Shown here piece by piece: positions 11,148-12,769 of a stretch of 31,791 bases of DNA; position 1 is the stretch's first letter, and each line of letters opens with the position of its first letter. A model generated the notes under the pieces. The model saw only the letters and a program-made list of their open reading frames with translations, ran no database searches and was not told where the DNA came from. A program made the position numbers and the translations under genes. The stretch lies in the IMG/VR virus record IMGVR_UViG_3300011258_000102, positions 1,000 through 32,790 of that record. One strand, written 5' to 3'. The DNA is from a virus.

Positions 11148-11189
11148 AAAAAAAAAGAACCTCTGTTCTGCGTAATGCAGAACAGAGGT
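11148..11189 (-). terminator. Strong Rho-independent terminator (leftward)
   Basis: ACCTCTGTTCTG (11159-11170) pairs perfectly with CAGAACAGAGGT (11178-11189): 12 bp, 7-base loop. On the - strand it leads into TC and nine Ts (complement of 11148-11156). It ends the transcript of the 157-aa gene. Confidence 0.9.
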
Positions 11190-11190
11190 A

Positions 11191-11213
11191 GTTACTCTCT
11201 AAGAGAGAGTAAC
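11191..11213. other. Second hairpin at the 3' end of the 157-aa gene
   Basis: GTTACTCTCT (11191-11200) and AGAGAGTAAC (11204-11213) form a perfect 10-bp stem with a 3-base loop. It covers the last codons and the stop of the 157-aa gene and directly abuts the terminator hairpin, giving two stacked stems that may protect the message end. Confidence 0.6.
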
Positions 11214-11672
11214 GAACTTCTTTTTGACCTTAGCAACTTTAGCTTTGGTATTTGTTGAACCAACAGATTTCCTATCAGGATCAAACTTAGAACCATATAG
11301 ATTTTCATAACTGTCATTATGAGTATCATAACAGTTCTTCACAACATCATAGTCCTCTTTTAGTTGTGACAGTTTATCTTCTAACTTGTCAATATCAGTC
11401 GGAAAACCAAAACCACTACGTCTTTCGATAGCCATTCTAGCGTAACCACCATTGGTATCCATAGCATTATCATCACTATTCAAGTCCTGAAGAGCGATAC
11501 AACCTGCGTTGTATTCGTTCTTGACTTGATTAACAACTCTATGCAACGAACCCATAAAACAAGTAAATAAGTATTTTTTCTTATATCCAAGTTGGGAGCC
11601 ATTCTTGGTATCTTTTTCTGTGATACCAAAATCATTTAGTACTTCTAGTATGTTTGTCTTAACTTGTGTCAT
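11199..11672 (-). CDS. Unknown early protein (157 aa), first leftward gene
   Basis: The start at 11672 is set by AAGGAGA six bases upstream; a longer frame to 11711 has no site. The protein opens MTQVKTNILEVLNDFGITEKDTKNGSQLGYKKKYLF, has a charged middle helix (KLEDKLSQLKEDYDVVKNCYD) and a very basic C-terminus (KAKVAKVKKKF). No family is recognised. It is a single-gene unit: it has its own strong terminator and lies first beside the divergent control region, so it is a candidate immediate-early protein. A frameshifted copy of its first ~45 codons and its leader lies in inverted orientation at 11827-12037. Confidence 0.75.
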   Translation of the reverse strand: MTQVKTNILEVLNDFGITEKDTKNGSQLGYKKKYLFTCFMGSLHRVVNQVKNEYNAGCIALQDLNSDDNAMDTNGGYARMAIERRSGFGFPTDIDKLEDKLSQLKEDYDVVKNCYDTHNDSYENLYGSKFDPDRKSVGSTNTKAKVAKVKKKFVTLS

Positions 11673-11737
11673 TTGTATCTCCTTTGTTATGTTGATGACA
11701 AGCTCTGTCAATCATGGTGTCGCAACTACAAATAAGC

Positions 11738-11755
11738 GTGTCGCTGCAGCGACAC
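11738..11755. repeat. 18-bp perfect palindrome (TGTCGC half-sites)
   Basis: GTGTCGCTGCAGCGACAC reads identically on both strands. A related hairpin, GTCGCT-GT-AGCGAC, lies at 12115-12128. This one falls in the leader of the 157-aa gene, inside a ~40-base segment absent from the mirrored copy on the right. It is a possible operator or RNA hairpin. Confidence 0.7.
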
Positions 11756-11763
11756 ACAATAAC

Positions 11764-11825
11764 AATTACAAGAATAAAATCGTCTCTGTCGAGGCGAACA
11801 GCCGAGCTATTTTATACTTGTAATT
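11764..11825. repeat. Centre of a large inverted duplication
   Basis: AATTACAAG-A-ATAAAAT (11764-11780) is mirrored by ATTTTAT-A-CTTGTAATT (11809-11825), a 17-position stem with one A/A mismatch around a 28-base GC-rich core containing TGTCGAGGCGAACAGCC. Sequence similarity continues outward on both sides into the leaders and starts of the 157-aa gene (left) and its broken copy (right), so this is the symmetry centre of a duplication, not just a hairpin. Confidence 0.75.
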
Positions 11826-11839
11826 AGCGACATTGTGAT
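11811..11839 (-). promoter_or_regulatory. Leftward early promoter candidate
   Basis: On the - strand ATCACA (11839-11834), 17 bases, TATAAA (11816-11811): 4/6 and 5/6 matches to -35 and -10. It would start a message near 11804 with a ~130-base structured leader ahead of the 157-aa gene. It overlaps the right arm of the central stem. Confidence 0.4.
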
Positions 11840-11883
11840 AGACAGCAAGTCTTGGCTCAACAGAACTAAGGAGATTCTCACAA

Positions 11884-12037
11884 ATGACCAAGACAAACAT
11901 ACTTAGATGTACTTGATTTTGATATTACAGAAACACTGGGAGATACCAAGAATGGTGGACAACGACCTCACCTACCCTCGATATTCCCATCAGCTTTAAG
12001 GTATTTACTTGTTGATTGGGAGTCATTGCACACCTAG
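11884..12037 (+). pseudogene. Frameshifted inverted copy of the 157-aa gene start
   Basis: Behind an AAGGAG site, ATG at 11884 reads MTKTNIL and then shifts by one base: the next frame gives DVLDFDITETLGDTKNGG and later YLLVDWESLHT before a TAG at 12035-12037. This parallels MTQVKTNILEVLNDFGITEKDTKNG and YLFTCFMGSLHR of the leftward gene. At DNA level AAGACAAACATACT, GATACCAAGAATGG and ATTTACTTGTT are shared exactly. The copy stops where a new hairpin element begins. It is a remnant of a gene duplication, or a decoy leader; it cannot make the full protein. Confidence 0.7.
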
Positions 12038-12107
12038 TATTTACCTTAGTAAATACGTAAGAGTGTCGAGTCTGTGGCGAACAGCGAGACTTCTATCGTG
12101 CAATGAC
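12022..12107. ncRNA. Candidate structured RNA element (three-way fold)
   Basis: GTCATTGCAC (12022-12031) and GTGCAATGAC (12098-12107) form a perfect 10-bp closing stem. Inside are a perfect hairpin GTATTTAC-CTTA-GTAAATAC (12037-12056) and a second hairpin around AGTCTGTGGCGAACAG...ACT (12069-12090). The core TGTCGAG...GCGAACAGC recurs at the centre of the inverted duplication (11787-11802). No tRNA T-arm is present. An RNA, a replication origin element or a packaging site would all fit. Confidence 0.5.
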
Positions 12108-12347
12108 GTTGAGAGTCGCTGTAGCGACACCTTATGTTTGATACTTTTATAAAGTAGAAATCCATGTGAAGCCACGGAGCAACAAAGTAAAAAGCATGAC
12201 TTTTTACGTCTTTGTTGTGAGGACTGCAACATGGTTAGTTTTGTCCACTTTGGCGATACAAAGTGGCTCGTATCAATATAGTGGCTCTTTGTAATGAGTG
12301 AGTCCAATGACGTAAGTCATTGTTTTAACTAGAGAACTAGAATACCC
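12108..12347. other. Gene-free stretch packed with perfect hairpins
   Basis: No credible gene is seen on either strand. Hairpins in order: GTCGCT/AGCGAC (12115-12128); TACTTT/AAAGTA (12142-12156); CCATGT/ACATGG (12162-12234) enclosing CAACAAAG-TAAAAAG/CTTTTTA-CGT-CTTTGTTG (12180-12217, 15 bp with a 3-base bulge); CCACTTTG/CAAAGTGG (12245-12266); CAATGAC-GTAA-GTCATTG (12305-12322, a GNRA-type tetraloop). GTGGCTC is repeated at 12263 and 12281. The density is far above that of the coding regions; likely an origin, packaging site or structured leader ahead of the terminase promoter. Confidence 0.6.
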
Positions 12348-12376
12348 TTGACATATGAAATTAGCTAATCCATAAA
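12348..12376 (+). promoter_or_regulatory. Rightward late promoter candidate
   Basis: A perfect TTGACA (12348-12353), 17-base spacer, and CATAAA (12371-12376, 4/6). Transcription would begin near 12383, in the G-rich stretch just before the small terminase gene. It is the best sigma70-type promoter seen for the late arm. Confidence 0.55.
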
Positions 12377-12397: not shown

Positions 12398-12769
12398 TTG
12401 TTAAAACAGCTAAGACTCACAAAGAAACAAAAGACACTAGTTGATACGATCGTAGCATTGGGTTGCAGTATAAAAGAGGCTAGTGCAAAGTCTGGATACG
12501 CAGAAGGCGAAGCAGGTAGAGTGACAGCCAGTAAGACTTTGCGATTGCCTCATGTCCAAGAGTATATGCAACAAATGGTAAGACAGAGTATTGGTCTTAA
12601 TGCTACGATAGCTTCTAGGAAGGTATTAGACTTAGCGAGTAGTGCTAAGTCTGAATACGTACAGCTAGAAGCTAGTAAAGACATACTAGATAGAGCAGGT
12701 TACAAACCAGTAGAAAAATCAATGTCGCTAGTGCAGGGTAATATCTCTGTGTCCATAGACCTAACTTGA
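12398..12769 (+). CDS. terS: Terminase small subunit
   Basis: The protein has 123 aa and starts at TTG 12398 behind the run GGGGGGTTCTC, the only good ribosome site in frame. The N-terminal half holds a helix-turn-helix-like DNA-binding part (TLVDTIVALGCSIKEASAKSGYAEGEAGRVTASKTL), followed by a central helix and the typical small-terminase C-terminal phrase ASKDILDRAGYKPVEKS...GNISVSIDL. It recognises the packaging site and feeds DNA to the large subunit (encoded at 14072). First gene of the late arm, next to a structured non-coding region that may contain its target. Confidence 0.85.
   Translation: MLKQLRLTKKQKTLVDTIVALGCSIKEASAKSGYAEGEAGRVTASKTLRLPHVQEYMQQMVRQSIGLNATIASRKVLDLASSAKSEYVQLEASKDILDRAGYKPVEKSMSLVQGNISVSIDLT

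Follow-up and report, generated by a model that had tools for sequence, protein, structure and literature searches.

Between gene X, the first gene of the leftward arm, and the small terminase gene terS, the virus DNA analysed here (the window, 31,791 nt, part of a virus contig of 32.8 kb) exhibits a structured element of about 700 nt. A cluster of hairpins had previously been pointed out at positions 12022-12347. This cluster is the terS-proximal (right) half of a larger element, the left half of which is a long rod made of the start region of gene X and a degenerate mirror copy of the same region. The mirrored X start, missed by the initial annotation, is the most distinctive feature of the locus. 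As the pairing is kept despite changes of the letters within a large family of marine phages, it is very probable that the locus forms a genuine RNA element not described before.

Gene X and its mirrored start

Early-type genes are located on the leftward arm of the window (ParB-like, single-strand DNA-binding protein, Erf-like annealing protein, RecE-like exonuclease, DUF932 protein), which ends at gene X. The rightward arm starts with terS, followed by terL, portal and capsid genes. The nearest isolate is Pelagibacter phage Hodr (65% identical terL); Methylophilales phage MEP301 is a more distant isolate. The features of gene X, of the rod and of terS are as follows.

11159-11189, minus strand: strong intrinsic terminator directly 3' of gene X (13-bp stem, T8)
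11199-11672, minus strand: gene X, encoding a 157-aa protein of a helical-hairpin family
11599-11772, plus strand: left arm of the rod, antisense to the X leader, Shine-Dalgarno, start codon (11672) and about 25 codons (self-alignment, fold)
11738-11755, no strand: perfect 18-bp palindrome GTGTCGCTGCAGCGACAC, a hairpin within the left arm
11773-11955, plus strand: right arm of the rod, degenerate mirror copy of the X start region
12398-12769, plus strand: terS, small terminase gene (phrog_2538, E-value 2e-12; Pfam Terminase_2)

Gene X is a real protein gene. An iterative HMM search recovered its homologues, which adjoin terS on the left, in about 60 loci of the family. The dN/dS ratio is about 0.08 against the close relative of the window and 0.08 to 0.4 overall, with no stops. 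The AF2 model of one family member (L109, pLDDT 89) is a helical hairpin, for which Foldseek returned no informative fold match. Gene X exhibits no Pfam or PHROG match, and a PDB sequence search was uninformative; weak coiled-coil-like matches were disregarded. With a terminator right after it, X looks like a one-gene transcription unit.

Comparison of the window with itself in inverted orientation revealed a long inverted repeat at 11599-11955. The corresponding rod (366 nt) folds at -162.5 kcal/mol (z = -15.9) on the plus strand and nearly as favourably, at -156.1 kcal/mol, on the minus strand. Its right arm contains a mirrored GGAG (11870-11873) and a mirrored ATG (11884-11886), from which the frame reads MTKTNILRCT before an early stop. 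A stem similar to the palindrome of the left arm recurs at 12115-12130, outside the rod. The structured stretch runs from about 11598 to 12327, so that the extent originally given to it was too small, the stronger half lying to the left. Nor is the stretch gene-free, as had been stated, since its left half mirrors the start of gene X.

The hairpin cluster next to terS

The stems named by the initial annotation are all present, as placed, in the right half of the element, which comprises the following.

12022-12031/12098-12107, plus strand: 10-bp stem closing a multi-branched hairpin (12022-12107)
12037-12044/12049-12056, plus strand: 8-bp hairpin with a CTTA loop, inside the multi-branched hairpin
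12072-12075/12081-12084, plus strand: smaller inner hairpin, inside the multi-branched hairpin
12115-12119/12124-12128: small stem
12142-12147/12151-12156, plus strand: small hairpin, one compensatory change against the relative
12162-12167/12229-12234, plus strand: 6-bp stem enclosing the bulged stem
12179-12194/12200-12218, plus strand: bulged stem of 16 pairs with a 3-nt bulge
12245-12252/12259-12266, plus strand: 8-bp hairpin CCACTTTG/CAAAGTGG, followed by CTCGTATCA
12305-12311/12316-12322, plus strand: 7-bp hairpin with a GTAA loop, followed by TTTT, weakly terminator-like (site 12305-12327)

The folding-energy comparison suggested for this cluster came out in its favour: it exceeds all 100 shuffled sequences on either strand and with DNA parameters. 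The z-scores of the 341-nt cluster stretch are -4.5 (RNA, plus strand), -5.3 (RNA, minus strand) and -7.2 (DNA). The window contains no Rfam match above the gathering threshold, in agreement with the earlier impression that the fold belongs to no known family, and a tRNA/tmRNA search returned no match.

The sole close relative is represented by three loci (L004, L005 and L008) that are identical to each other here and exhibit 85-87% identity to the window across the region. Most stems of the cluster are kept in it. Covariation, proposed at the outset as a check, was found in the form of 12 two-sided changes that keep Watson-Crick pairs in the cluster, all against this one relative; one further two-sided change leads to a G-T pair. 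Three compensatory changes are in the closing 10-bp stem (GTCATTGCAC/GTGCAATGAC in the window, GTAACTACAC/GTGTAGTTAC in L005/L008), four in the inner CTGT/ACAG stem (window against L005/L008) and two in the long bulged stem, with single changes in other stems. Apart from the compensated ones, the pairs of the hairpins at 12142-12234 are mostly unchanged. When the relative is folded by itself, other bases re-form the stem at 12115-12128; the GTAA-loop stem at 12305-12322 is lost. The CAATGAC/GTCATTG arms of the first stem do recur in the last one, as had been noticed, but the repetition looks incidental, the last stem being absent from the relative. An intrinsic terminator array was considered and rejected because the T runs are weak and not conserved: there are two weak plus-strand sites among the stems, the last of which is not conserved.

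The hairpin CTTTGGCG..CAAAG followed by CGTATCA (12245-12276) recurs in one otherwise unalignable locus (L023), which is 91% identical to L008 over 34 nt at this place. This hairpin is therefore a small conserved motif within a variable region.

Recurrence and maintenance of the pairing

Searches with terL and terS yielded several hundred loci. Some of these phage relatives (L311-L318) reside inside MAGs labelled Gammaproteobacteria, Euryarchaeota, Rhodobacterales, Flavobacteriales and others; the taxon labels probably reflect binning contamination, and are accordingly uninformative on the host. The survey of inverted repeats covered the 189 unique loci in which the sequence upstream of terS measures 600 nt or more, a repeat being scored when at least 40 paired columns were found within 1.5 kb upstream of terS. 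Such a long inverted repeat is present in 96 of the 189 loci, against 0 of 169 control stretches. A further test took one locus per cluster and scored a gene as mirrored if more than 70% of its start region pairs with sequence lying to the right. The first leftward gene qualifies in 39 of 78 independent clusters, and none of the 128 other leftward starts does. In 69 of 84 loci, corresponding to 33 of 40 clusters, the left arm includes the start codon itself. Folding reveals the same arrangement in loci missed by BLAST, among them phage Hodr, with a 380-nt rod over the start of its X gene.

The rods fall into a short and a long class. The arm of the short class spans the X leader and extends roughly 50-85 nt into the coding sequence. 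That of the long class spans the entire X unit (about 500 bp), reaching in several cases the point that matches the X terminator, and the whole stretch of 1.2-1.4 kb folds with 480-550 pairs. Arms of up to 600 nt were observed. The rods accompany X proteins that are merely about 10-60% identical, and a rod is found also at one locus (L111) whose gene family was left unjoined by the X search.

For three long-class loci with left arms 65-74% identical, RNAalifold predicts 426 pairs, of which 152 exhibit a compensatory two-sided change. Our own count gives 162 compensatory pairs out of 465 in a first group, against at most 23 with slid partners, and 142 out of 486 in a second group, against at most 32. 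Between relatives with this left-arm identity of 65-74%, bulges of at least 2 nt are shared in 18 of 22, 15 of 22 and 11 of 22 cases, the null mean being about 4. Since bulge positions are shared beyond chance, the arms appear to have co-evolved and not to have been copied anew in each lineage. Between close relatives many one-sided changes break pairs, and in the pair counts of single genomes double changes are too few to decide alone. In the rod of the window no compensatory change was found against its close relative.

The arms might also be the non-selected product of inverted duplications by template switching, which can give inverted repeats, kept alike by repeated copying from one arm to the other. 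That one-sided changes are common between close relatives would suit this origin. It is at odds, however, with bulges shared across divergent lineages and with the isolation of the compensations, as well as with the wobble strand bias described below and the restriction to one locus, and we regard it as very improbable. The shared bulges and the isolated compensations likewise disfavour gene-copying between the arms as the cause of the covariation; the compensatory changes are mostly isolated single pairs, unlike what tract copying would leave. We hold with high confidence that a selected structure exists.

The helices of the rods are long and frequently bulged, and some reach 20-31 bp. Such bulged helices, together with a rapid change of sequence at constant pairing, could be expected of a decoy RNA whose duplex occupies a host dsRNA-binding enzyme, for instance RNase III, with the DNA of X serving as an economical arm. 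We give this idea very little credence: it leaves the position of the arm on the X start region unexplained, and some of the helices are long enough for cutting.

Transcribed strand and possible functions

A wobble pair on one strand corresponds to an A-C mismatch on the other, so that the balance of the two may point to the strand that folds. On the plus strand, G-T outnumbers A-C by 494 to 132 in 46 clusters (one locus each), against an expectation of 1.29:1 from composition. Among the 42 untied clusters, 36 lean to G-T and 6 to A-C (sign test, p = 3e-6), with extremes of 61:0 (L194) and 32:1 (L046). The rod of the window is balanced (9:8), and some clades exhibit no strand bias (6:13 in L269). 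The simplest reading of the bias is an RNA that runs rightward and is antisense to gene X, and we consider it probable that the element acts as RNA. The proposal of a candidate structured RNA made in the initial annotation thus gains support from the compensatory changes and the plus-strand wobble bias, together with the lack of Rfam matches.

The same annotation had considered an origin or a packaging site. An element acting as DNA, by a cruciform or a single-strand hairpin in replication, recombination or packaging (pac/cos), would be in keeping with the hairpin cluster having its strongest z-score with DNA parameters, and with the vicinity of terS. The strand bias of wobbles, and G-T pairs amounting to 8-12% in some clades, are on the contrary RNA-like. 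Nor do any ends lie here: in the contig the element has an internal position, and the record of Hodr is circular. Overall such a role is improbable; in the clades lacking a wobble bias, a role at the DNA level may nevertheless apply.

Promoters for a rightward RNA were searched with a consensus, with the density of exact TTGACA and with a matrix learned from terS promoters. No conserved promoter for this RNA was found by these means; the candidates are scattered, and the terS promoter alone stands out. Two sites in the window are relevant.

11530-11558, plus strand: candidate promoter TTAACA-17-CATAAA for the rightward RNA, inside the antisense of X (weak evidence)
12350-12376, plus strand: terS promoter TTGACA-17-CATAAA, directly followed by GGGGGGTAAGGGGGG (to about 12397)

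An RNA initiated at the first would begin immediately upstream of the left arm; this site is found also in L005/L008, and is not general in the family. The second is located to the right of the structure and cannot produce the rightward RNA. As it is downstream of the hairpins, these are outside the terS leader, contrary to the suggestion of a late leader. Of the 189 loci, 160 have its TTGACA, and in 120 of these the promoter is followed by two G-tracts separated by 3-7 nt. An inverted repeat (TGTTTTAACTAGAGAAC/GTTCTCTTGTTAAAACA, 12321-12337/12392-12408, 94% complementary) brackets the terS promoter and the G-tracts in the window, and similar arms repeat also in L024.

No DNA polymerase was found among the window genes examined. 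This leaves room for a start of replication driven by the host, in which a structured rightward transcript would form a lasting RNA-DNA hybrid at the G-tracts and act as primer in the manner of the ColE1 preprimer, the X mRNA being the counter-transcript. The two G-tracts that recur in 120 loci, and the large structured RNA upstream of them, would suit such a role. But the terS promoter between the structure and the G-tracts explains the latter as its own start region, and the replication-related genes found are of the recombination type only (Erf, RecE-like exonuclease); we judge such priming to be improbable.

The element could also belong to the mRNA of X itself. Transcribed leftward from a start to the right of the element, this mRNA would carry a cis-acting leader whose hairpin hides the ribosome binding site until opened. 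The arm of the short type, covering the Shine-Dalgarno, the start codon and about 50-85 nt of coding sequence, has the shape of a translation-start lock, and the minus strand of the rod folds well too (z = -14.8). The wobble bias nevertheless favours the opposite strand, no conserved leftward promoter was found right of the right arm, and arms that mirror the whole gene with its terminator exceed what a start-site lock needs. A leader of this kind is thus unlikely.

Because the left arm is antisense to the X start region, control of X is the most economical idea. We tentatively favour, while not calling it probable, a structured RNA of about 700 nt between X and terS, of the rightward strand, that would control the translation of gene X. 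The RNA would be made across both arms, and its left arm, antisense to the X translation start, could pair with the X mRNA. The mirror arm would hold or shape the antisense arm, and the hairpin cluster would follow the rod in the same RNA. In this way the RNA might set when X is translated, around the early/late switch. The computed support consists of the structure, its reappearance at the corresponding position across the family, the compensatory pairing, the plus-strand wobble bias and the overlap of the arm with the Shine-Dalgarno and start codon of X. Simple silencing of X is not obvious, as within the rod the mirror arm already pairs with the antisense arm. A broader reading, which we find possible if rather doubtful, is that of a new RNA class, in which a rod of up to about 1.3 kb made from a protein gene and its co-evolving mirror serves at the early/late switch throughout the family; one strand would then encode a protein and the other be constrained as RNA structure.

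Cis-encoded antisense RNAs over a translation start are known from type I toxin-antitoxin systems, plasmid copy-control, phage P22 sar and lambda OOP. The present element resembles them in carrying, on one strand, a stretch antisense to the neighbouring gene's ribosome binding site and start codon, complementarity to the X translation start region being observed. It differs by the mirrored copy of the target, which pairs with the antisense stretch over its full length, in arms that extend to 600 nt. GOLLD, ROOL, OLE and HEARO are large structured RNAs of phages and bacteria, and are likewise long, non-coding and in some cases carried by phages. In contrast to these, the element has no Rfam match, its sequence is conserved in close relatives only, and it forms a rod without branches out of the neighbouring gene. 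Hepatitis delta virus and obelisks have rod-like RNAs in which one arm carries a gene; these share with the long type (about 1.3 kb) an unbranched, bulged rod having a protein gene along one arm. Here, however, the rod is in a DNA phage locus, the short type mirrors the gene start only, and the Rfam search of the window, the sole check for ribozymes, gave no match. ColE1 RNA II preprimer is a structured RNA of several hundred nt upstream of a G-rich tract, an order found here as well, with the difference that a strong promoter separates the structure from the G-tracts and that priming is hypothetical.

To our knowledge, no system combines features of antisense RNAs, large phage RNAs and rod-like RNAs, and we know of no form of regulation by inverted copies of a gene's own start that are kept complementary by compensation, as they are here in dozens of phage lineages. 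The literature covered, which left out most subscription papers and all bioRxiv preprints, holds no description of the element or of phage Hodr. If the element is confirmed, abundant marine phages would possess a large structured RNA, and the locus would exemplify DNA that is constrained as protein code and as RNA structure at once. The element would also offer a clue to the separation of early and late genes in small phages devoid of their own polymerases. Pelagibacter HTCC1062 and phage Hodr are a cultured pair, which makes the element directly testable. The GenBank record OQ414635.1 (our locus L086) is titled EXVC031P Hodr and bears locus tags EXVC032PBaldr; its annotation may be swapped or mislabelled.
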